Below the pieces are notes generated by a model. It was not told the origin of the DNA, did no database searches, and saw only the letters and a list, made by a program, of their open reading frames with translations. A stretch of 64,000 nt of DNA from Bacteroidota bacterium (lineage in GTDB: Bacteria; Bacteroidota; Rhodothermia; Balneolales; HLUCCA01), in contig JAFIEZ010000016.1 of the NCBI GenBank assembly GCA_020832235.1, positions 1-64,000 of the forward strand. The letters run 5' to 3'. Below are positions 1 through 12,300 of the stretch, one piece after another (the stretch's first letter is position 1; each line of letters starts with the position of its first letter). The position numbers and the translations under genes are program-made.

Positions 1-1
1 T

Positions 2-355
2 GCTCGCATTGCCCAGGATCAATGTGTGTTTCCACAGCGAGTGCAGTGCGACAATGGCAGCGAGTTCATCAGCAAGGATGTAGACCAATGGGCCTATGAG
101 AACAATGTAACCATGGACTTCTCAAGGCCGGGAAAACCCACTGATAATCCGTATGTTGAATCATTCAACGGGAAGTTTCGTGATGAGTGTTTGTCGGTGA
201 ATTGGTTTTTGTCACTCGAACACGCCCAAGAAATCATTGACCAATGGAAGTGGGGTTACAACCACCTCAGGCCACATAGTTCTTTAGGAGATTTAACTCC
301 CGAAGAGTTCATTCAAACCCACCAACTAACTCCCGAAAACTCTACTTTTGAGTGA
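2..355 (+). mobile_element. IS3-family transposase (OrfB), 3' part only
   Basis: This is the C-terminal part of a DDE-type integrase-core transposase of the IS3 family. The frame is open to the left edge of the window, so the gene is cut by the window and not shown to be broken. The residues CDNGSEF carry the second catalytic Asp of the DDE triad, and PYVESFNGKFRDECL carries the final Glu region. The tail NHLRPHSSLGDLTPEEF is the usual end of IS3 OrfB proteins. OrfA and the left terminus lie outside the window. The stop codon is followed at once by a terminal-repeat-like sequence (353-377), which supports an intact right end. The element lies next to a truncated ATPase gene. Confidence 0.93.
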
Positions 356-377
356 CTCTAAAATTGGGAGGAGGTCA
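353..377. repeat. Probable right terminal inverted repeat of the IS3-family element
   Basis: The stop codon of the transposase opens a sequence which, read inward from position 377 on the opposite strand, begins TGACCTCCTCCCAATTTTAG. IS3-family ends typically start with TGA or TGT and sit directly after orfB. The left copy is outside the window, so the repeat is inferred from position and form only. Confidence 0.6.
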
Positions 378-408
378 CTTAACTTACAATCTCTAATCAC
401 AAACGTAG

Positions 409-789
409 CTAGTTAGGGGAAGCTTTCACTGTGATGTAAACATCTACATGGGGTTTCACAAACAACCCGTCTACCAATCGTTCAAACTCCTTAACATTTT
501 GAACCTCATCCAAAAAAACATAACTGGGCTTTGATAAATCTAACTGCTCTATGATATGTGCATACAATCCATCTAAGTCATTTAGAAATTTGCGCAATTC
601 GAATTCCTCAAAGTTTAGAAACACTATTTGCTGTGCATGCACCCCCATTTGCAACAGCGTTTGACGATAGATTTCAAACAAGGTACTTTTGCCACTTCTG
701 CGCAAACCACTTACCACTTTTATGAGGTCTTTATCCTTGTATGCCAGTAGTTTGCTTATATACGCTTTGCGATTTGTGTAATTTTTCAT
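409..789 (-). pseudogene. Truncated AAA (AAA_14/DUF4143-type) ATPase
   Basis: This is the N-terminal 126 residues of a P-loop ATPase of the AAA_14 family. Such proteins are usually about 380-430 residues long and carry a C-terminal DUF4143 nuclease-like domain. Walker A is visible as GLRRSGKST at about residues 28-36, and Walker B as VFLDEVQ at about residues 92-98. The homologous sequence stops after VYIT, where family members continue with GSN (sensor 1). Here six unrelated residues and a stop follow. The break (about position 425) is some 50 bp from the apparent IS3 right end at 377, so the insertion may have been followed by further loss. The DUF4143 part is absent from the window. The remnant is very unlikely to work. 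Confidence 0.85.
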
Positions 790-1047
790 ACAGCAAAGGT
801 ACTGAATAAATCATTAAAACTTGCATAATATACAAGTTTTAATGATGCCTCGAAACGGCCCGTAAATTTACGTTGGAATAGTATACAGCCTTAAGACGTC
901 TTCCGCCTTTGTAACGGTCTGGCGGTTAAGCGGCCGTGGCTATGGTTTGAATAACAACCGCAATGTAGTAAAATACCCGTCAAAACCAAACAACGCCAAG
1001 CAACCACTGTCCGCTTGGAGCGCGTGTGAGTAGCCCCTTTTAATAGT

Positions 1048-1072
1048 TGACATTATATGTCAAATGTGACAT
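1048..1072. promoter_or_regulatory. Palindromic operator candidate for the HigBA-type pair
   Basis: TGACAT-TAT-ATGTCA at 1048-1062 is a perfect inverted repeat. It overlaps a second one, TGTCA-N4-TGACA, ending at 1071. Operators of this kind in front of type II toxin-antitoxin operons bind the antitoxin. The first possible ATG of the toxin (1057) lies inside the palindrome, which favours the next ATG at 1081 as the real start. Confidence 0.5.
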
Positions 1073-1080
1073 ATTTAGGA

Positions 1081-1422
1081 ATGGCAGTCACTAACAAATA
1101 CATCGTTTGGCTACACGGAGAGATAAAGACTCCACCGTTCGGAGCCGAATCTCGGCTGAAAGCCGGTTTCTTGATGCGAAGACTGCAGCAAGGTGAGCAT
1201 TTGGAGATGCCTGATTCTAGACCAATGCCTTCGATTGGCAAAAACTGTCACGAACTACGCATTAATGATGCCAATAAGATTTGGCGTATTGTGTATTACA
1301 TAGATAGTGAGGCGATTGTTATTCTGGAAGTATTTCTCAAAAAGACCCAACAAACCCCGAAAGAAGTGATAGATCAGTGTAAAAAGCGATTATCACGCTA
1401 CAAACAGTTTACAGGAGATTGA
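1081..1422 (+). CDS. HigB/RelE-type toxin (phage-derived Gp49-like, DUF891)
   Basis: The protein is about 113 residues and belongs to the RelE/ParE superfamily branch annotated as phage-derived Gp49-like or DUF891. Members are ribosome-dependent mRNA interferases paired with an Xre antitoxin. Family features are the N-terminal IVWLHGEIKTPPF, the central SRPMPSIGKNCHELRI with Arg and Glu in the expected places, and WRIVYYIDSEAIVILEVF leading to a Lys-rich tail. An in-frame ATG at 1057 would add eight residues, but it lies inside the operator-like palindrome and family members normally begin close to the 1081 Met. The antitoxin gene starts three bases after the stop, so the two are one operon with the toxin first, as in higBA. 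Confidence 0.88.
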   Translation: MAVTNKYIVWLHGEIKTPPFGAESRLKAGFLMRRLQQGEHLEMPDSRPMPSIGKNCHELRINDANKIWRIVYYIDSEAIVILEVFLKKTQQTPKEVIDQCKKRLSRYKQFTGD

Positions 1423-1425
1423 AAG

Positions 1426-1764
1426 ATGGATAAGCTAAAACGTCAAAACTTAGAAAAAGCTGGATTTCGCGTTGGATCAACCGCGGACTTTTTAGAGTTG
1501 TCTCCAGAAGAAGAAGCGTATTTGGAGATTCGCTTAGAGATCAGTGAACTTATTCGTTATCAGCGAAAAAAACGTGGTTGGACGCAAGTGCAACTAGCTC
1601 GCGCTTTGGGATCCAGTCAATCGCGTGTAGCGAAAATGGAAGTTGGCGATCCGAGTACATCTTTGGATTTGATGTTGAAGGGATTGTTGCGTCTTGGCGT
1701 ATCCAAGCAGGAACTAGGAGAATTACTCACAGGTAAATTTCGATTCGCACTCCAACCTGCATAG
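1426..1764 (+). CDS. HigA-type Xre antitoxin
   Basis: This is a 112-residue DNA-binding antitoxin with a helix-turn-helix of the Cro/C1 type at about residues 45-95. RYQRKKRGWTQVQLARALG and SQSRVAKMEVGDPS cover helices 2 and 3. The N-terminal 40 residues (RVGSTADFLELSPEEEAYLEIR) are typical of antitoxins paired with Gp49-like toxins. It follows the toxin by three bases and would neutralise it and repress the shared promoter through the palindrome at 1048-1072. A short GC hairpin (AGCCC/GGGCT) follows six bases after the stop codon. Confidence 0.9.
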   Translation: MDKLKRQNLEKAGFRVGSTADFLELSPEEEAYLEIRLEISELIRYQRKKRGWTQVQLARALGSSQSRVAKMEVGDPSTSLDLMLKGLLRLGVSKQELGELLTGKFRFALQPA

Positions 1765-1784
1765 TTCTTAGCCCGAAGGGCTAC

Positions 1785-1868
1785 TAACGGCTTCGCATTT
1801 GTGCGGCGGGGCGACCATGTATGAATATAAGCAACAAACGCTTACACGTCAGCAGGAAATGCTTGTTA
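1785..1868. repeat. attC-like imperfect palindrome
   Basis: TAAC at 1785-1788 pairs with GTTA at 1865-1868, and inner arms GCATTT (1795-1800) pair with AAATGC (1857-1862), giving an 84-bp imperfect hairpin between two convergent genes. The arrangement of outer AAC/GTT boxes with inner arms resembles integron attC sites. The outer boxes do not fully match the RYYYAAC/GTTRRRY consensus, and no integron integrase is in the window. Confidence 0.35.
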
Positions 1869-1897
1869 TGCCACCAGATGCATTATTTATGTAATTG

Positions 1898-2671
1898 TCA
1901 TAAACTTTCAATTGAACTCATAAGCTCAATATAAAAGCTTCGAATTGAATCTTTGTAATCGTGAATATCATTTAATGATAAAAATATATCCTCACCTGAT
2001 AATGGAGAATAAACTTTAGGATTGAAAAGAGTATTATTAATTTCAAGATTTTGTAGCTCTGGATTACTAAATAAATCAGGGCGCATATTTTTTAATCTTC
2101 CTGCAGATGAACCTTCGGCATGTTTGACTGCGTTAGCAACTTGGCGTAGTTCTGAAATTTTTGACCAAGATTCAAAATTGTCAATTTCAACCCCAATATT
2201 CTTTAAACGATTTTTAAATTCTTCAAAATTTATCATTCCTGAATGAAAAGTAGGCTCATTACCTTTTTTTTGCATTTTTTTGAACTCTTGATTATTGAAT
2301 AACTCTGAGTCCCTTTCCTCTTGTGGGTTTAGAATTTCTTTCCGAAAAAAAGTCATGATATGTTGCTCAAATAAATGAAATAGAAATACCGCATGAAGAT
2401 TTATAACTCCCTGCCTGATTTGCTTTAATAGTATAAAATGTGAAATGCCAACTTCTTCTGCATGTTCGGCATAATCACCTGGATCTTCGTTTCCTGTTCC
2501 AGGACTTGACATATATTCGTTCCATTTCTCAGTACTTAGCTTCTCTGCCTCTTCTTCAATATTTTCAAATCCTGTAAGAATACGATCTTGCAAAACATCC
2601 ACGATTGCAGTTAACTGTGAAACATAAACATCCATAAAAATAAAGGACCAATAACTCTGATTCAGTGCCAT
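1898..2671 (-). CDS. Uncharacterised protein, HEPN-like
   Basis: This 257-residue, largely helical and AT-rich protein has no signal peptide. The segment ELRQVANAVKHAEG at about residues 176-189 resembles the R-x-x-x-N-x-x-K-H signature of HEPN-fold RNases, which often occur in toxin-antitoxin or abortive-infection modules. I infer a HEPN-like fold from this motif and the helical pattern; a profile search would be needed to confirm it. The first 80 residues resemble a helical dimerisation region. It converges on the HigBA pair and lies 18 bp downstream of a small lipoprotein gene on the same strand, between two attC-like hairpins. Its base composition is clearly poorer in GC than the genes after 3.4 kb, suggesting recent acquisition. 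Confidence 0.6.
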   Translation of the reverse strand: MALNQSYWSFIFMDVYVSQLTAIVDVLQDRILTGFENIEEEAEKLSTEKWNEYMSSPGTGNEDPGDYAEHAEEVGISHFILLKQIRQGVINLHAVFLFHLFEQHIMTFFRKEILNPQEERDSELFNNQEFKKMQKKGNEPTFHSGMINFEEFKNRLKNIGVEIDNFESWSKISELRQVANAVKHAEGSSAGRLKNMRPDLFSNPELQNLEINNTLFNPKVYSPLSGEDIFLSLNDIHDYKDSIRSFYIELMSSIESL

Positions 2672-2689
2672 AATAAATAGTCAAGAGTA

Positions 2690-3076
2690 TTATCTAATAT
2701 ATCGTATTGCAGCAAATTTCATTGTCATTTGTGTACCTCCCGCAATATATATTGGTGGAGAACCGGCAACTGGATTTGGTATTACTTCTGAGGCAACCTC
2801 TCTTCTTTCATTTGTCATTGGTATTATACCATGTGCACCAATTTTACCTGCTTTTTTTTGAGCCGCTCTTACAACTTCCGATTGATTGTTATATTGTGAC
2901 CCCTTTGCCTCTATGATAGCAATGATTTCGTATTCGTCCTCTGGTTCTTCGAATAATAGAAGTACATTTTCAGTGGGCGGGAATGATCTAGATGGGTCAA
3001 GAAGCATAACATCGGCACTTGCACAACCCATAAGTAAGAAAACTGCTGTAATTAATGATAATATTTGATATTTCAT
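2690..3076 (-). CDS. Small putative lipoprotein
   Basis: The chosen start gives a 128-residue protein with the signal MKYQILSLITAVFLLMGC, a good lipoprotein signal with lipobox LMGC. A longer reading from 3145 would place 23 polar residues before it and run through the attC-like hairpin, so it is less likely. The mature part contains a possible substrate-independent fold with AAQKKAGKIGAHGIIPM, reminiscent of small periplasmic lipoproteins of the DUF4156/RcsF kind, but I do not assign a family. It lies 18 bp upstream of the HEPN-like gene and may share its transcript. GC content is low, as in the rest of the accessory segment. Confidence 0.65.
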   Translation of the reverse strand: MKYQILSLITAVFLLMGCASADVMLLDPSRSFPPTENVLLLFEEPEDEYEIIAIIEAKGSQYNNQSEVVRAAQKKAGKIGAHGIIPMTNERREVASEVIPNPVAGSPPIYIAGGTQMTMKFAAIRYIR

Positions 3077-3096
3077 GGTGATTTCATTTTGGTGGC

Positions 3097-3163
3097 ATAA
3101 CGGTTTATTAACGTGCAATTTGGTGATTAAGACCTTTATTTGCAACTTATTTGTGACCGTTAT
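3097..3163. repeat. attC-like imperfect palindrome
   Basis: ATAACGGT (3097-3104) and ACCGTTAT (3156-3163) form perfect 8-bp outer arms. TGCAA/TTGCA form short inner arms, with a spacer between. This two-part stem in 67 bp resembles an integron attC site or the comparable boundary hairpins seen around accessory genes in Bacteroidota. It sits 20 bp upstream of the lipoprotein start codon. Confidence 0.4.
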
Positions 3164-3425
3164 TTCATAAGACGCGGTTTCTGGAGTTTAGCGTGCAGTT
3201 TGCACTATAAGTAAATGAGTTATTGAAACATTCCCTGGATCACAAGCCCCCCCCCCGAATCTATCGAAACTATATAAGTGATTGCAAAACACATCCTCCC
3301 CTATACAACTATTCCCCGCTCCCATCCGTCAACAGTTAAACCAATTGAAAACGAGCATAAGTGAAACGAATTGTCGATCTTAACCCCATCAACACCTATA
3401 CTTTCCAACCAGCACCTGCAGGACT

Positions 3426-4592
3426 ATGATACATCCAACCATCAAATCGTTCTTATTCTCCATCCCCCTCCTTTTTATCTTCTTTTCCTGCTCTAGCAGC
3501 TCATCCGACCCCGTTACCGCCGATTCTATCGCAAACCAGTCCTACGAGCGACTCACACCCGTACTGTCGTTCGGTGAGGATACCGCCGATGCGGATGATA
3601 TCTTTTTCCAGCAGATTGTCGATTTCACCCGACATCCCGATGGACGATTCTTCCTGCTCGACTCCGGACAGAAAAGAGTCTTCGTTTTCGGTCCAAGCGG
3701 CAACTACATCAACGCTTTCGGACGTGAAGGCCGCGGTCCGATGGAGTTCGAAAACCCTTTCCATATCTTCACCGTCAGCAGTACGCTCTATGTATACGAT
3801 ATCGGGTCGTTCTCGCTCAAATCCTTCCGGGAAAGCGGACCCAACAACTGGGAATTCATCAAAAGCATAGACGCCAATCCGCGTTTCGAAGGAAATACCA
3901 GTACGTTCCCCGTCCGTGTTCAACCCGTGGGCGAAAACCTGTTTACATCCACTTATCGCCAACGATTTTCACCCACCAACAGCGGCTCGGATCCTGCACC
4001 GTTTAACCTGGCTACCATTAACGATAATGGCGACCTCCAGCATGTGCAGTCCGTCACCCTCCCGCCGACTCAGATGCTCATGGTGCAGAACAACTCCATG
4101 TTTATGATCCGGTCTCAACCTCTAGGATACAGGATCGTAGACTTCAACTCTCCCGACGGATTCTACTACGCGGCGCATAATTCAAGCAACGAGTTCTATC
4201 GCCTCGACCTCTCCGATGCGGATGCTACGCCCGAACTCTGGGCCCAACCAACGCTGCCAACCCACACCAATACACCCGAGGAAATCGCAAGGGCTCTGGA
4301 TGGTCTCGAGGGAGAGATGCTGAGTCAGGCCCGCGACGGAATGCCCGAACTTCGTCCGTTTTTCGATCACTTTGTGGTGTGTGACGAGGGGCTGTTGTGG
4401 ATTCGTCATGAGCCGTATAGTGCCGAGACCAACGAAACCCGGTATGTGGTGTATGATCCGGCTCAGGAGGCCTTCACCCGATTTGTCAGCTTCGAGGGAC
4501 GGGTTCGCATTAACCGCATCGCCAACCGTGAAATCCTTGCACGCGGTCATGACGAGATGGGCCAATTTATGGTGCTTGTGTACCCGATCTGA
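3426..4592 (+). CDS. 6-bladed beta-propeller lipoprotein (BF3164-like)
   Basis: The 388-residue protein starts with a signal peptide ending in FFSCSSSSS, a lipobox with a Ser-rich tether, so it is probably an exported lipoprotein. The body has repeated beta-rich segments such as GRFFLLDSGQKRVFVFGPSG and GREGRGPMEFENP, the latter typical of the 6-bladed beta-propeller proteins (NHL-like, BF3164 group) common in Bacteroidota. Their role is mostly unknown; binding of peptides or glycans at the cell surface is often assumed. It is monocistronic: about 190 bp separate it from the RND genes, and the same strand continues. The start ATG is preceded by no clear ribosome-binding site, which is normal for this group. 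Confidence 0.8.
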   Translation: MIHPTIKSFLFSIPLLFIFFSCSSSSSDPVTADSIANQSYERLTPVLSFGEDTADADDIFFQQIVDFTRHPDGRFFLLDSGQKRVFVFGPSGNYINAFGREGRGPMEFENPFHIFTVSSTLYVYDIGSFSLKSFRESGPNNWEFIKSIDANPRFEGNTSTFPVRVQPVGENLFTSTYRQRFSPTNSGSDPAPFNLATINDNGDLQHVQSVTLPPTQMLMVQNNSMFMIRSQPLGYRIVDFNSPDGFYYAAHNSSNEFYRLDLSDADATPELWAQPTLPTHTNTPEEIARALDGLEGEMLSQARDGMPELRPFFDHFVVCDEGLLWIRHEPYSAETNETRYVVYDPAQEAFTRFVSFEGRVRINRIANREILARGHDEMGQFMVLVYPI

Positions 4593-4784
4593 TACTTGTT
4601 TATGTCGATGTGCACAAATCTCACAGTAAAAGTGGATGGATAGTTAGACATAATTACAGATATTAACCCGAACCACCTGACTTAACCCGAGTTTGGGTAC
4701 TCACACGAGTTTGGTCGACTGACCTCTCGCACGAGTAAACCACCACCCCACGTTACACCATAACCTGATCTTGACTCCCAACTG

Positions 4785-7700
4785 ATGCTACTTGACCGTC
4801 CCGTTACAGCGCTGATGCTCGTTCTGGCTACGTTTATCTTCGGATGGATTGCCCTGCAGAGCTTGTCTGTGGACCTCCTGCCGGATGTCGACCGCCCATC
4901 GCTATTGGTGCAAACCGAGTGGTCCGGTGCATCGGCCCGCGAGGTGGAGTCACGCATCAACGAACCCCTGGAAGCGGTGATGAGCACCATTCCCGGCATC
5001 AGCAGCGTGCATAGTTTCGCCCGGCAAGGACAAAGCATTATTGCCCTGAATTTCGAGTGGGGACGGGATATGAACCTGGCCTTTCTCAACACCCGCGAGA
5101 AACTCGATCAGGTTCGTATGATGTTGCCCGAACAGGCCGGTCGACCTCGCCTGATTTACACCACTCCCGCCGATGAACCCGTTGCCGTACTATCGGTTAC
5201 CGCCTCCGGTCAGCCCGATCCCGATTTCGCAACCCGCCTCGACCTGAAACGCTGGTCTGAGCATGTATTAACCCGTCGACTCGAGCAACAAGAGGGTATC
5301 GCTCAGGCCGTTCTGGTCGGAGCCGTTGTTCCGGAAGTACACATCCGCTTTCGTCAGGCCGACATCGACCAATTCGGACTCTCCATAGCTCAAATCCGGG
5401 AGGTTATTCGTCAGGCGAACGTGTACTCGGCCTCAGGAGAGCTGCGCGACGGATGGTATCGCTATTCGCTTTCCATCCAAAGCCGTATTCAGTCCATCGA
5501 CGATATTCGGATGCTGCCGGTGACCCGCCTCACCGACACCCAACGCATCCTCCGCCTCCACGAAATCGCCGATGTGTATCTGGATGAGCAGGACCCCACA
5601 TCGTTTTCCTTATATAATGGGAGCCAGGTTTTAACGGTACTTGTGAAAAAGGATTACGGCAGCAACACGGTTCGGGTGTTTGAGTCCCTCGATCCGCTGA
5701 TTGAAGAAATCACCGGTCAATATCCGGGTATACAGGTGGAAATCCTGCAGGAAAACGCCTCCTACGTAAAGAATACCATCCAAAACCTGCTGCAAACCCT
5801 GGCTTACGGAGGCATCCTTGCATTCATCGTGCTGTTCGTGTTTCTGAACGATCCCAGGATGCCGTTTACGATCGGAATTGCTATTCCTGCCAGTATTTTC
5901 CTCACCTTTTTCGTGATGTACCTGTTCGGTATTCAGCTGAACATTATATCGCTGAGCGGACTCACGCTGGGAATCGGTTTGCTGGTGGACAATGCGATTG
6001 TGGTGCTGGAGAACATCAATCGATATCGCAAATACGGTCATGATATTCGGGAGGCGGCCCACCGCGGAACCCGGGAAATCGCCCTTGCCGTGACCGCTTC
6101 TACGTTCACAACGATATCGGTCTTTTTGCCCCTGCTGTTTCTGGGCGGATTCGAAGGCGCGATTTTCAGGGATCAGGCCTTCACCCTGTCGGTGAGTTTG
6201 CTGGCTTCGCTGTTGGTAGCGCTTGGGATTATCCCGGTGATGGTGGTTTCGTTTCAGAAGCGGTCCGCAAGGAAGCAAAGCATAGTTCCCGCCGTTAAAC
6301 AGGATGGAAGTTTTGCCGAAGGTTCAGCCAGCATGCATGATAGAGCCTTTGCCGAAGGTTCAGACCTAAATTCAGATTCCGTAACAAGCCGTTCACACAT
6401 TGATGAAGCAAGGTTTACGTCTGATATAAACGTCACTCATGACCCAAACCCTGACGAAAAACGGAACGCTTTTGCACGTGGATTTAACCGGGTTCAGCAC
6501 CTCTACGAAGGACTGCTTCAGTTAGCGCTGCGTCGGTCTGCGCTGGTCATTGTTTCTACCCTCATTCTGGGAATCCTTGCCGGATGGATGTTCTGGCACC
6601 TACCGAAAACCATGCTCCCCGAAGGCGAGCCGGATAGTCTGCAGTACCGGGTGAGTCTGCCCGGGAACACCTCCCTGCTTACGGTGCAGCAAGCGGCGCG
6701 GGACCTCTCCCTCGATCTCTCGGCAATACTGCAATCGGAGTCCCCAGCCCGCGGCATTCTGGTAATGGGAGGCTATACCGATCAGACCAACCTCAGCCGC
6801 ATCGCGCGGGAAGGACTCAACAAATTCACCATCCAAATTGCAGTCCCGCCCGGATTTCGTGCAGCGGAAGTCGACGACATGATCACTGCGCGCATTGCAT
6901 CGCAGTCCGGCTGGACGCTCGAGCGACTCGAAGGCGACAGCGCACTTGGTACGCTAACCGGCGGGAACACCGATCCCGTTATCCTGCAATTTGTGGGCAC
7001 AGACCGGGCATTCAGCGAAAGAGTTGCAGAAGCCATGATGGAGTGGCTGCCCGCCCGAATCCCGGGAAGCACTCTGCATAAGCAATATCCCGAAGTGGTC
7101 GATACATGGCATATTCGTTTTAACAGCGCCCGGTTGCTGCAACTCGGACTCACCGAGAATCAGGTGATCGATTTCCTCGAGTCCCGTGCGCGTGGCAATC
7201 TGGTCACCGAATGGAATCGGGAGGATGAAAGCATAGCCATTCGCCTGTTCAGCGACCGCGACTCCTTTGTGGATCCCCAATCGCTGGTCATGTCCGCCGG
7301 TGGACGCAACATCCCGCTTCGCGAACTCCTGGCCATTGAACAGGTTCAGGAGCCCGAACAACTCGAACGCGCCGATCAGGCCGCAGTGCTCAGCTATCTC
7401 ACCGGATTCACCCTGGCCGACTGGTGGTTCAACGGCCGCGAAATCCGCGAAGCCGTGCGGGAATTCACCCGCGAAACCGGCATCGAAGTACGCATCACAG
7501 GATCGGCACTCATGGTGGACCGGCTCCTGCGCGACATGCTCCGACTTTTGGGCATCAGCCTCATCCTTATATACATCATTCTGGCCGTTCAGTACGAAAG
7601 CCTGCGTTATCCTGCACTGATTCTGGTCGCTGTTCCCTTCGCGTGGATCGGCTCCCTGTTTTTACTGTACATATTGGGAGGAAGCCTGAACATGCTCTCC

Positions 7701-8048
7701 TTCATGGGGCTGCTCATTCTCACCGGTATTGCGGTAAATGATGCCATTTTGAAAGTGGATTTCATGCGGAGGTACCTGGAGGAGTCCGGCGATCTGAGTC
7801 AGGCCATCATCCAGGCCGGAAAACATCGATTTCGACCGGTTTTGATGACTACCATGACCACCATTTTAGGACTTTTACCCATGCTCATTCCCTTCGGCGA
7901 CGGATATGAATTTCGTCAGGCCCTGGCTACGGCGCTTATCGGCGGGATGTTCACCTCCACCCTGCTCACCTTATTTGTCATTCCGGTACTGTTCCGGATT
8001 GTGAATCGAAACCACACGTTTTCAGCTCAACCATCAGAAAGCTTATGA
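4785..8048 (+). CDS. RND efflux permease (HAE1/AcrB family), first copy
   Basis: This 1087-residue inner-membrane proton-driven transporter has the RND architecture: TM1 (TALMLVLATFIFGWIAL), a periplasmic porter domain, TM2-6 at about residues 335-490, a second periplasmic loop and TM8-12 at about 910-1070. The TM4 relay appears as GIGLLVDNAIVVLENI, and the TM10 counterpart as GIAVNDAILKVDF, a form common in Bacteroidota HAE1 proteins. The central cytoplasmic loop (about residues 492-570) is lengthened by a low-complexity segment with two copies of FAEGS. An in-frame TAA lies 24 bp upstream of the ATG, fixing the start. Its stop overlaps the adaptor gene (ATGA), so both are translated together. 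Substrate is unknown; drug, detergent or lipid export is the family norm. Confidence 0.95.
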   Translation: MLLDRPVTALMLVLATFIFGWIALQSLSVDLLPDVDRPSLLVQTEWSGASAREVESRINEPLEAVMSTIPGISSVHSFARQGQSIIALNFEWGRDMNLAFLNTREKLDQVRMMLPEQAGRPRLIYTTPADEPVAVLSVTASGQPDPDFATRLDLKRWSEHVLTRRLEQQEGIAQAVLVGAVVPEVHIRFRQADIDQFGLSIAQIREVIRQANVYSASGELRDGWYRYSLSIQSRIQSIDDIRMLPVTRLTDTQRILRLHEIADVYLDEQDPTSFSLYNGSQVLTVLVKKDYGSNTVRVFESLDPLIEEITGQYPGIQVEILQENASYVKNTIQNLLQTLAYGGILAFIVLFVFLNDPRMPFTIGIAIPASIFLTFFVMYLFGIQLNIISLSGLTLGIGLLVDNAIVVLENINRYRKYGHDIREAAHRGTREIALAVTASTFTTISVFLPLLFLGGFEGAIFRDQAFTLSVSLLASLLVALGIIPVMVVSFQKRSARKQSIVPAVKQDGSFAEGSASMHDRAFAEGSDLNSDSVTSRSHIDEARFTSDINVTHDPNPDEKRNAFARGFNRVQHLYEGLLQLALRRSALVIVSTLILGILAGWMFWHLPKTMLPEGEPDSLQYRVSLPGNTSLLTVQQAARDLSLDLSAILQSESPARGILVMGGYTDQTNLSRIAREGLNKFTIQIAVPPGFRAAEVDDMITARIASQSGWTLERLEGDSALGTLTGGNTDPVILQFVGTDRAFSERVAEAMMEWLPARIPGSTLHKQYPEVVDTWHIRFNSARLLQLGLTENQVIDFLESRARGNLVTEWNREDESIAIRLFSDRDSFVDPQSLVMSAGGRNIPLRELLAIEQVQEPEQLERADQAAVLSYLTGFTLADWWFNGREIREAVREFTRETGIEVRITGSALMVDRLLRDMLRLLGISLILIYIILAVQYESLRYPALILVAVPFAWIGSLFLLYILGGSLNMLSFMGLLILTGIAVNDAILKVDFMRRYLEESGDLSQAIIQAGKHRFRPVLMTTMTTILGLLPMLIPFGDGYEFRQALATALIGGMFTSTLLTLFVIPVLFRIVNRNHTFSAQPSESL

Positions 8049-9253
8049 TGAAATCCCCAAAAAAATACGATGACGCTCATGGCGTGCATAAAACGACGTT
8101 CGGATATGTTCAAAACCACGATGGAGACCGACCAGCTAGTGATACTACTTTATTTAAGTGGCCGTTTCATTCGGTATTATTTCGACGCCCGTTGTACTGG
8201 TCTGCCGCCCTGCTTATCCTGTTAGCTGGTTGCGGCAGCGACGATGCTGCAGAATCGGCCCGAGAAAGTCCTCAGGGCATTGAAATCCGTCCGGATGTGG
8301 TCTTTGTGAAAACCGATGGCGAGCCCATTCACCGCTACCTCGAAAGCACCGGAATTGTAGAACCTGTTCGCGATTTGTCGATTCAGTCGCGCATCAGTGG
8401 TTTTATCGAAGCCCATCAGATTCGAGAAGGCCGCCGCGTGAGTGCGGGCGACACCCTGCTGCGTATTGCAGATGAGGAATGGCAGCTGCGGTACATGGAA
8501 GCGCTGAATGCCCGGCTCAAAGCCGAGCAGGAGTATCGCATTGAGCGAGAACTGCGGTCCCGATCCGGTCGCAACGGAGAGGGCCAGCTCAGCGAGCGTG
8601 ACGACCGCATGCTTCGACAACAAACCGGACTACTTCAGGCCGAAATCGCCTACGAACGCGCCGCGCTGGACCTGAGCTATACCGTTTTTCGAGCACCCTT
8701 CACCGGCGAAATCTACACCCCGCTGAACTTGTCGGAGGGCGCATTTATTGGTCCGGGAGCCGAGTTGGGCAAACTGCTTGATCATCGCACGGTTCTGGTG
8801 CGTTTTGATGTATTGGAGTCGGAGCTGGCCTCCATCCGCGAAGGGATGACCGTTGAGCTTACCGCATCAGGCGGCAGGACCATGAATGGACGAATCCGCA
8901 CCATATCGCCCATGGTGAACCGGGACCGAAAAACCGGGCAAATACTGGTCGAGGTGGCAAATTCCGATCGATTGCTAAAGTCCGGCATGACCGTAAACGG
9001 CCGAATTCTCACCGAAACACGGTCCGGAGTGCTGCGTGCTCCCCGAAGTGTGCTGCTCGAGCGCGACGGGCGGCAACTGGTCTTCCGCCTGCGCGGATCG
9101 ATGGTGGAATGGATTTATGTGTCGCCAGATATGATTACGCCGGAGTACATCCTGCTGAATGAACCCGTTTTTACCGCCGGCGACACCCTCGCCTTCGACC
9201 GACATTTTGCGCTCAGTCACCAACAGCGCGTGAATGTCAGAATGATGAACTAA
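8045..9253 (+). CDS. RND periplasmic adaptor (membrane fusion protein), lipoprotein
   Basis: This is a 402-residue HlyD/AcrA-type adaptor linking an RND pump to an outer-membrane channel. A 58-residue N-terminal stretch precedes the hydrophobic segment, which ends in the lipobox LLAGC, so the mature protein is probably lipid-anchored. The lipoyl half-motifs appear as RISGFIEAHQIREGRRVSAG and VFRAPFTGEIYTPLNLSEG on either side of a short helical hairpin (about residues 135-195). The beta-barrel domain follows. The start overlaps the stop of the first RND gene by four bases. Without the long N-terminus the protein would be typical of the family, so a later start cannot be ruled out, although no good internal Met lies close to the signal peptide. 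Confidence 0.92.
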   Translation: MMKSPKKYDDAHGVHKTTFGYVQNHDGDRPASDTTLFKWPFHSVLFRRPLYWSAALLILLAGCGSDDAAESARESPQGIEIRPDVVFVKTDGEPIHRYLESTGIVEPVRDLSIQSRISGFIEAHQIREGRRVSAGDTLLRIADEEWQLRYMEALNARLKAEQEYRIERELRSRSGRNGEGQLSERDDRMLRQQTGLLQAEIAYERAALDLSYTVFRAPFTGEIYTPLNLSEGAFIGPGAELGKLLDHRTVLVRFDVLESELASIREGMTVELTASGGRTMNGRIRTISPMVNRDRKTGQILVEVANSDRLLKSGMTVNGRILTETRSGVLRAPRSVLLERDGRQLVFRLRGSMVEWIYVSPDMITPEYILLNEPVFTAGDTLAFDRHFALSHQQRVNVRMMN

Positions 9254-9371
9254 ACGCAACAGCCTTCAACAATGTAGGGTCGATCAATACGTGTGTAGGC
9301 TCAATGTTATAGCGATTGAACGTTCCTGCCATTGATTGTATCCCGAATAATCCCGCATTTCTGTGCTATCC

Positions 9372-12300
9372 ATGAGTTTTTTTCAACGACGATACCTGAT
9401 TTCCCTGTTCTACCTGCTGGTAGCAACAATCGGTGTGGTATCATGGATGAATATTCCCATGGAGCTGGCGCCCGACGCGCAGTTACCTTCCCTTACCGTC
9501 ACCCATAACTGGGGCAGCACCTCGCCGGAAGTCATGGAGCAGGAGGTCACGCGAAAGGTTGAACAGGCCGCATCCCGCTTGCGCGACGTTGAAAACATCA
9601 GTTCCACCACGCGAGAAGGATTTTCATCGGTAACCATTCGTTTTCGCCGCGATGCCCCGGTCGATTTCCGGTCGATCGAGCTACAGGAGGCCCTATTCAC
9701 CCTCCGCGAAACCCTGCCATCCACCGTGGTGCAGCGACCGATTTCCCGCGCCGTCCCCTCCGAATTGCAGGCGATGCAAACGTTTCTGGTGTACTCCCTG
9801 CACGGCGATATGCCCCGGCGCAATCTGCTGGAACTGGCCCAGCAACGCATACGACTGCCGCTTATGGGGCTCGACGGACTGTCCGGCGTGCAACTTGACG
9901 GAGTGCGCGAACCGGCATTGACCGTCGTTTTTGATACCCGTCAGCTGGAGCTTCTCGGTCTACGTCCGGCCGAGATCCTCACCCAGGTAAACCGCAGTCT
10001 GAACTGGCATTCCGCCGGATTTACCGAAATATCATCGCAGCGACTCGCCCTGCTCGTGCCCCCTCAGTTCACCTCCATACAAGACATTGAGCAAAAACGC
10101 ATTACGCTGCCTGGCTCCCAGCGACAGCTGATACTGGGCGACATCGCACGCGTCGAGATTCGCGATTATCCCGATTTTCAGCGACGGCGCATCAACGGGA
10201 ATCCGGCGCTGACCATACAATTTGAGAAAGAACCCGGCGCCGATGCCCTCTCGCTCTCCGAAACCATACAGTCGCGCGTAGCACAGATACAGGCGGAACT
10301 CCCCGAAGGCATCACGCTCCGCCTCGAGCAGGACAACACCGAACAGCTGCGCGAACAACTGGCCGAGCTCCAGACGCAGTCCCTGTACAGCTTGCTCGCC
10401 GTTTTCCTGGTGCTTTTGCTGTTCATCCGCCGGTTTCGAGCGCCCTTCATCATTCTGGGCAGCATCCTGTTCAGCATCCTCATCAGTATTAGTCTGCTGC
10501 AACTGACCGGACTCACCATCAACATCCTCACCCTGGCCGGACTCACGGTTGCCATCGGGATGATCATCGACAATGCGGTGGTCGTTTTCGAAATTGTGAA
10601 TCCGGGACTTCCCGAGGGCAGAGACGCGCGCGTTCGCCACCTGCGCGAGCACATCCGAAGAGCCGTTGTGCCGGTAATCGGCAGTACCCTCACCACCATC
10701 GGGATTTTCATCCCCCTCATTTTCGCCATGGAGGCGAACAGGGCCCTGCTCATGCCTTTGGGAACAGCCTTATCCTTCACGCTGCTGGCTTCGGTACTCG
10801 TATCGCTCACCTGGATTCCCTATGCCCTGATCTGGCTGGTTCCGGCCGGCATCAAAGAACGGGTAACCTTCAAAGACATCCGCAAGGGCGGCATCTTCCG
10901 TAAAATCAACCTGTTGCGCATATTCTACTGGAGGCGTCGACTTCGCTGGGTACTGGTTGTTGCGGTTTTGCTGGCCGTTGGCATCCCGACCTTCGCCATT
11001 CCCGAACCGATTGATCGTCCGGCCAGCGCGGAAACCGAGACGTCATTTCGGGAGACGACATCCCGCTGGATAAAATCCATCTCCAAGCCCTATTTCGACA
11101 ACCGAAACGCGATTGATCCGTGGATTGGCGGTATCAGCTACCGGTTTTTCAAGCAAACCTACTTCGGAGAACCCTGGGGATTTTCAACCGGGGAGTCTAT
11201 TTTCGTGAGCATCAATACGCCACAGGGTACGCCCCTCGACGAAATCGATAAAATTGCGCGGAATTTCGAGGTGATTGCAGAGCCCTATACCGAGTTTTTC
11301 GAGTATTTCGAAACCCGGGTGTCGGAGCAGTTCGGGGCGCGACTCATATTTCATCTAAAAACAGAGTCCCTAATGATGCCCGAGCCCTACATTTTCTACG
11401 CCGAAGCGGCGTACCTGGCGGCCCGGACGGGCAATTCCCGCATATCGGTGAGCGGACTGGGCGATTCCTTTTTCAGTGGCGGTGGAGGGAGTGTGAGCTC
11501 CAGCATAACGCTGCGGGGTTACTCCTACCTGGAACTGGAACAAACTGCCCTTCGACTACAGGAAAGGCTCGAACAAAACCGCCGCGTTCAAAATGTAGAC
11601 ATCAATCAGACCGGATTTTGGGGTAGAAGCGATATGAAGCAGTATACGCTTCAGCTGGATGACCACACCATTCAAGCCAAGGGACTCGACCGTCGATCGG
11701 TACTCGATGCCATACAGGTGGATATCAATCCCGAAAACACCTTCGGCAGAGTGGAGTTTCAGGGACAGCAAATGTACCTGATGGGCACCGGTCCCAGAGC
11801 ATCCACCTATTGGATGGAGTTTCAGGACCGTCCGCGGCAGTATGGTCAGACCATGTTCACCATGGGCGAAATCGCGACACTGGAACTCCGCGACGTCATG
11901 AGCGACATCCGCCGTGAAAATCAAGCCTACACGCGCGGGATATCCTACGACTTTCTGGGTCCTAATCCCATGGCGAGACAATTTCGGGATGATTTACTCG
12001 CCACCTTCCCGTTACCCATCGGCGTTCAGGTACATGAACCCACGTTTTGGTCGTTCGGAACCCGGGAATCGAGTCAGAATATGACCCTCATCCTGTTGAT
12101 GGCCCTGCTCAGCGTGTGGATGATCGTGTCGGCCCTGCTGGAAAAATGGCTGGATCCGCTTTGGGTGATTGTCTCGGTGCCGCTGGCCCTGCTGGGCGTG
12201 ATGAGCGGCGTGCTCTTTCATGAAATGAACTTCTCGCAGGGCGCCATCGCGGGCACACTGCTCAGTGTGGGGGTGGTCGTGAACAACGCCATCCTCCTCA

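Follow-up and report, generated by a model that had tools for sequence, protein, structure and literature searches.

The window spans the initial 64 kb of C8, a 96,655-base contig of a draft genome (G000; 3.38 Mb, 20 contigs). At its left end, the following features were found in minus-strand order: an orphan attI-like site, a cassette with lipoprotein-like and HEPN-like genes, the recombination site attC1, a HigBA cassette, a further site (attC') and an ATPase cassette interrupted by an IS3-type element (Table 1).

Table 1. Features at the left end of the window, in positions of the whole stretch. R2 is an attC covariance model, C17 the contig that carries the integron integrase of G000, and G001 a genome of the same genus.
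Feature	Position	Strand	Evidence or remark
IS3-type element end (rve integrase core)	1–360	+	PF13683, E 4.6e-27; cut by contig start
Start of cassette 3	361–914	−	boundary deduced from attC'; 3' end and attC beyond the IS element and contig end
Cut-off AAA_14 ATPase gene of cassette 3	409–789	−	PF13173, E 1.7e-17
attC', weaker and longer attC	903–1040	−	R2 21.1 bits; R-box test
Cassette 2, 873 bp, HigBA opposed to array direction, attC' at end	915–1787	−	R-box 8/8
Promoter-like site upstream of HigBA, in cassette 2	1047–1075	+	TTGACA-17-CATATT, 10/12, consensus match only
HigB-like toxin (Gp49, PF05973)	1057–1422	+	E 8.3e-15
HigA-like antitoxin (HTH_3)	1426–1764	+	E 8.5e-12
attC1 (core 1785–1868)	1776–1879	− (top strand = minus)	R2 93.1 bits, E 5.8e-20
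Cassette 1, 1313 bp, lipoprotein-like and HEPN-like genes, attC1 at end	1788–3100	−	R-box 8/8
257-aa protein, at best HEPN-like	1898–2671	−	RTasHEPN, E 0.008
128-aa lipoprotein-like protein, LMGC near start	2690–3076	−	no Pfam match at E ≤ 0.1
Orphan attI-like site with upstream flank	3101–3227	−	homology to C17 and G001 sites; R-box boundary

The LMGC near the start of the 128-aa protein of cassette 1 is presumably a lipobox-like motif. Its 257-aa neighbour had been labelled HEPN in the original prediction, a label supported by one weak profile match (RTasHEPN); the protein showed no Pfam match at E ≤ 0.1 and no further match across 128 genomes of the order. In cassette 2, the HigB-like toxin may truly start at the in-frame ATG at 1081, and because this cassette carries its own promoter-like site, it would not need to rely on a promoter at attI. 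The cut-off ATPase of cassette 3 resembles the candidate defence protein PADLOC PDC-S01 (E 5.2e-38, residues 6–125 of 412). A 97% identical copy of the IS piece that starts C8 was found at the end of contig C10; since the repeat lies at both contig ends, it probably broke the assembly at this point. An Rfam search at gathering thresholds returned nothing but one tRNA.

attC sites and cassette boundaries

The original prediction read two AAC/GTT palindromes, at 1785–1868 (hairpin 1) and 3097–3163 (hairpin 2), as attC sites separating accessory modules. The first indeed has the AAC/GTT outer boxes with inner arms and is the core of attC1, while the second is a weak palindrome that overlaps an attI-like site; likewise, the cassettes proved real, but one of their boundaries is attI-like and attC' had been overlooked. 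Two covariance models were built. R1 comprised 17 homologous sites, two of them from G000, and R2 comprised 109 R1 matches (E ≤ 0.005) from 40 loci of relatives, so that hairpin 1 was matched by a model holding only sites of other genomes. In the 109-row alignment, which was fitted to the structure, standard pairs make up 96.2% of the paired cells, and changes on both sides occur in 192 cells, against a mean of 40.4 in a shuffled control that disregards relatedness. The unfitted 17-row alignment gave 93.3% standard pairs and 10 both-side changes (4.2 when shuffled). The folding energy of hairpin 1 is ordinary (z +0.74 and +0.33), and the evidence for attC1 is therefore homology and covariation, not stability. 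A copy with 80% identity lies at C17:591–674, about 1.5 kb from intI, and DNA resembling hairpin 1 was found in 27 of 59 genomes (E ≤ 0.1). Hence the outcome that was to count against the original prediction, neither a model match nor a recurrence in the genome, did not occur.

At its score, attC' has an E-value of 0.0011 over 5 kb, 0.021 over 100 kb and 0.74 over the whole genome; the site is backed independently by the R-box complementarity described below. Over the whole of G000, R2 located seven sites, of which C8 holds two, C5 three, and C17 and C11 one each; the weakest two have E-values of 0.20 and 0.74. R2 sites at E ≤ 0.01 occur in 50 of the 59 genomes and an IntI match at E < 1e-50 in 33 of them, G000 included. 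No exact match to a 28-base attC pattern was found in viral contigs. The C11 site (C11:222759-222863, locus L138; 49.8 bits) is a lone attC-like site about 1.2 kb from the contig end. At the start of C5 (L122, 288–6685), the three attC sites lie amid paralogous Por-tail genes that alternate with toxin-antitoxin-like pairs (DUF433/DUF5615, MntA/HepT and RelB/YafQ); the Por secretion tail paralogues are at 2526–3602 and 4759–5868, with Pfam run on the first only.

At its 5' end, a cassette inserted by IntI has bases complementary to the R'' box of the attC that belongs to it. Among adjacent attC pairs of relatives, 58 of 72 reach an R-box match of at least 6 of 8 informative positions, and 32 match at 8/8; the corresponding values for 11772 all-by-all control pairings are 5.8% and 0.45%. 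Both complete cassettes of the window match fully (Table 1), with one base altered within the GTT itself at the cassette 2 boundary. The cassette 1 boundary places the start of the array at 3101/3100, within hairpin 2. Moreover, at the 12 intI-bearing loci all 60 of 60 R1 attC matches are oriented opposite to intI. As attC1 lies on the minus strand, this polarity puts the upstream end of the array at the right, where the attI-like site is located.

With paired-arm attC sites (attC1 and the weaker attC') and R''-complementary ends on both complete cassettes, the integron reading of the left end of the window is firm. No integrase adjoins the array, as had been anticipated: a tblastn search for IntI over the 64 kb gave a best E-value of 0.17, and the strong IntI match of the genome lies on C17, so this is not a complete integron. 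At least two attC sites with no neighbouring intI make the locus a CALIN by the threshold in the available part of PMC9024848; its left side runs off the contig end at position 1. We are thus highly confident that 361–3227 is a minus-strand integron cassette array of at least three cassettes, starting from an attI-like site without adjoining intI.

The attI-like site at the array start

The search for intI in the genome, which had been recommended together with the original prediction, led to contig C17. The protein encoded there scores 407.6 bits against TIGR02249 (cut-off 265) and has no internal stops. Among solved structures it matches IntI4 best (2a3v; E 6.2e-79), and when the two are aligned, both show the motifs GLR, HTLRH, LGH and IYTH, which we take to be catalytic; by profile score and motifs, the C17 protein is an IntI. 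The gene is accompanied by its own attI and by an attC related to attC1. Thus, G000 is not integrase-free, even though the window locus has no intI. Relatives of this IntI in named genomes were a protein of a Verrucomicrobia MAG (45% identity) and a short match in Alteromonas.

A blastn search with hairpin 2 in relatives returned short matches only (best E 0.003), and its attI homology emerged only once the crossover had been assigned to the step from G at 3101 to T at 3100, where the first cassette starts. A query was taken from C17, namely the 82 bases ahead of the first cassette at the intI locus. With it, the piece containing 3101–3160 on the minus strand ranked first of 3194 windows (64 kb, both strands) at three gap settings; it scored 51, 44 and 34, compared with 31.5, 36 and 28 at the runner-up position, and under the two looser settings the alignment stops at the predicted crossover. 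In 5000 dinucleotide shuffles the score never rose above 45, and of 22,524 windows taken from other genomes, just the two containing the G001 attI scored 51 or more. Other measures placed the site lower. With the attI of G001 as the query it came 8th, 4th and 25th at three gap settings; under another scoring scheme, 12 and 10 of 1000 shuffles equalled or exceeded the observed score; and on the attI profile introduced below it falls within the top 2.0% of GTTA sites, outside the top 1%. Judged by these alignments, hairpin 2 overlaps an attI-like site that is homologous to the attI beside the intI of this genome. Homology to the resident attI and a crossover at the first cassette boundary are both present. 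Because no intI lies beside the site, we call it orphan and attI-like.

A sister species and intI-less arrays of the order

Our searches, of 59 and 128 genomes, included one other member of the genus, G001. The RND pump that adjoins the window array has a counterpart at C11:95895-99143 of G001 (94% protein identity), and this locus contains five attC sites with the same polarity as in the window. R-box trace-back placed the first cassette boundary there with a match of 10/12, and the sequence to its left is attI-like; an equal 10/12 match inside the RND gene lacks an attI-like flank and was discounted for that reason. The orphan sites of the two species align over 137 columns (window 3098–3227, score 85) and have in common a 15-column gap relative to both intI-adjacent attI sites. 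No IntI was found at the orphan locus of G001 at E ≤ 1e-3. A blastn comparison of window positions 1–12000 with G001 C11:100000-116000, which holds the cassettes past the first boundary region, returned no match. By this comparison, the putative orphan attI sites of G000 and G001 carry different cassettes at a syntenic place.

The intI loci of the two genomes are likewise syntenic (C17 in G000 and C14 in G001), which gives four sites to compare. Where these divide two against two, four columns within 17 bases of the crossover sort by genome and one by locus, while five sort by genome and sixteen by locus farther out; small though the sample is, it suggests that the bases near the crossover may follow the resident integrase. 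The distance between the aligned attI and RND-upstream parts is about 185 bp in G001. In G000 it is about 216 bp if a gene for a 6-bladed beta-propeller (3426–4592), situated between orphan attI and RND pump, is left out of the count; tblastn of the propeller protein found nothing at the syntenic G001 locus. In G002, from the same family, no attC match was detected at E ≤ 10, and a 5 kb contig with the RND gene held no convincing attI-like site.

To see how arrays elsewhere in the order begin, the first attC was traced in loci picked from an attC listing, a survey that is not a census. It held 55 array entries, with one G001 array entered twice (L137, L139) and two intI loci (L156, L098). An R-box match of at least 10/11 was obtained for 26 entries, L156 being left out. 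Of these, 13 start on attI-like sequence, 4 on attC-like ends, which are attC sites that the model missed, and 9 score lower. Here, attI-like means exceeding the 99th percentile on a profile made from 12 intI-adjacent attI, with the percentile set by 960 GTTA sites, a control set that itself contains loci holding orphan sites; when each was left out in turn, only 6 of the 12 known attI passed this threshold, and the intI locus L156 failed. The 13 attI-like starts are distributed over nine genomes: G050 (2), G056 (2), G006, G024, G052, G001, G013 (3), G043 and G007. At these loci, tblastn with six IntI proteins detected no IntI, save a XerD-like recombinase upstream of the orphan array of G052. 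The latter was rejected as an IntI, since it scores 137.4 against the integron profile (cut-off 265) and best as XerD (327 bits, just below the cut-off of 329.6).

Several of these genomes bear on how orphan sites arise. In G013, a single contig, three orphan loci repeat 165–188 bp of the intI–attI spacer with 80–85% identity. Two further loci match about 390 bp, including about 190 bp of the intI start (a 5' stub); at one of them the nearest detected attC is 3.5 kb off. The IntI of G013 is in pieces on opposite strands (C1 753038-753532, minus; 757692-757928, plus), so this genome seems to be without an intact IntI. Its intI–attI spacer (L098, about 5560–5730) contains inverted copies of AAGTCGTATAAGTA / TACTTATACGACTT, and the unit also occurs in L096, L097, L099 and L101; these inverted copies, largely retained at the orphan copies, are possibly operators or promoter elements. 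G024 is likewise a single contig, and 1.6 Mb separate its orphan site from an uninterrupted intI. No strong IntI was found in G007, G043, G050 and G056 (best E 4e-12 to 6e-11), so the orphan sites there may be relics.

Origin of the platform and comparison with known systems

The unusual feature of this locus is the separation of attI platforms from intI. Taken as a whole, it is probably best explained as an orphan-attI array on a platform left by an integron that lost its intI, with the IntI of C17 perhaps acting in trans. In this scenario, the orphan attI would descend from a second integron platform: attI platforms would have been duplicated and intI would have decayed at the copies, with the stubs of G013 as intermediates. 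On the simplest reading, the local intI was probably lost before G000 and G001 split, and a loss that early, together with different first cassettes, would call for later recombination; possible alternatives are that different cassettes were lost from a longer ancestral array or that intI was lost twice independently. The C17 IntI would then insert and excise cassettes at the orphan attI in trans; for insertion, a circular cassette would recombine with this site through its folded attC. Such continued use of the orphan attI is a prospect that we place only just short of even.

More tentatively, the integrons of this order might be distributed, with one intI beside its own attI and several detached attI platforms fed in trans. 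If so, detached platforms could, with comparable reservation, be expected to keep their crossover-proximal bases matched to the resident integrase long after the loss of intI. Should many intI-less arrays, which are commonly regarded as degraded integrons, start at a maintained attI, one integrase would have extra landing and expression sites, and this would change how cassette capacity is counted and how the origin of intI-less arrays is understood. R-box trace-back, moreover, finds attI sites without a prior model.

The reading that competes most seriously, to which we grant a considerable though less than even chance, is that of an ordinary decayed integron, that is, a CALIN with a frozen array whose intI was lost and whose leftover attI is unused. 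CALINs have been proposed to be degraded integrons, as the accessible part of PMC9024848 has it, and both the 5' intI stubs at two G013 loci and the orphan-like sites in four genomes without strong IntI fit this proposal. However, G000 and G001 have kept the platform without traces of intI and yet carry different cassettes, and in the small sample of divided columns those near the crossover sort mostly by genome (4 vs 1) and the outer ones mostly by locus (16 vs 5).

It is improbable, and we disfavour the idea, that hairpin 2 is instead a divergent attC of an unrecognised type, with the array running on rightward into the chromosome. Its pairing, with AACGGT/ACCGTT as outer pairs and TTGCAA as an inner arm, would suit an attC, as would the two bases CC before the crossover, ahead of GTT, and the cassette boundary lying exactly at the hairpin. 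Nevertheless, the palindrome is AT-rich and weak (z -0.60 and -1.04) and is not fitted by the attC model: with filters off, R2 gave a partial match of 10.6 bits (3089–3121, minus) and one of 7.2 bits (3098–3171, plus), both with E > 0.3 even for 5 kb. Furthermore, the hairpin aligns with intI-adjacent attI, and the G001-homologous sequence to its right reaches the RND pump. Insertion at a non-classical attG site is very unlikely; such sites differ from classical att and do take cassettes in genomes, according to the parts of PMC12901181 and PMC12444791 at hand, but the present target is attI-homologous over tens of bases and occupies the same locus in two species. That the assembly divided a single array, with its ends now on C8 and C17, is equally hard to credit: although both contigs stop near or within cassettes and the C8 end bears an IS repeat, each has its own attI-like site with the array directed away from its own chromosomal flank, the corresponding G001 loci are on separate contigs (C14 and C11), and orphan sites also occur in the single-contig genomes G013 and G024.

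Returning to the orphan-attI reading with IntI acting in trans, we compared it with systems already described. Outside class 1 integrons, attI sites are poorly known, as stated in the available part of PMC9024848. Among the matches listed in an open-access literature search (titles and abstract beginnings), none described repeated or syntenic chromosomal orphan attI. Like other CALINs, which in Xanthomonas form conserved loci away from the intI locus and are stated, in the portion of PMC12444791 at hand, to be mobilisable in trans by a functional IntI, the window array has attC sites and cassettes without intI; it differs in opening with a recognisable attI that is homologous to the resident one and recurs, in another species, at the corresponding locus. 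Integrons with an inactivated or lost intI, in Xanthomonas (PMC12444791) and in Treponema phagedenis, where intI was lost and attC remnants were left (PMC3607928), similarly keep cassettes after the loss, as far as the excerpts of these papers go, whereas G000 retains another uninterrupted intI. Delta-attI cassettes of class 1 and 2 integrons also hold attI sequence apart from intI, and the attI2 core AATAAAATGTT is similar to AATAAATAGTT on C17; in those cassettes, however, an attI fragment replaces attC at the downstream end (PMC12901181, in the part consulted). A parallel in terms of attI is the CALIN of the Shewanella prophage M16-3, where the intI-less array starts with the same type of attI as a complete integron does (PMC9892861, available text); there both arrays lie within one prophage, whereas the copies in G000 are chromosomally distant and G013 has several.
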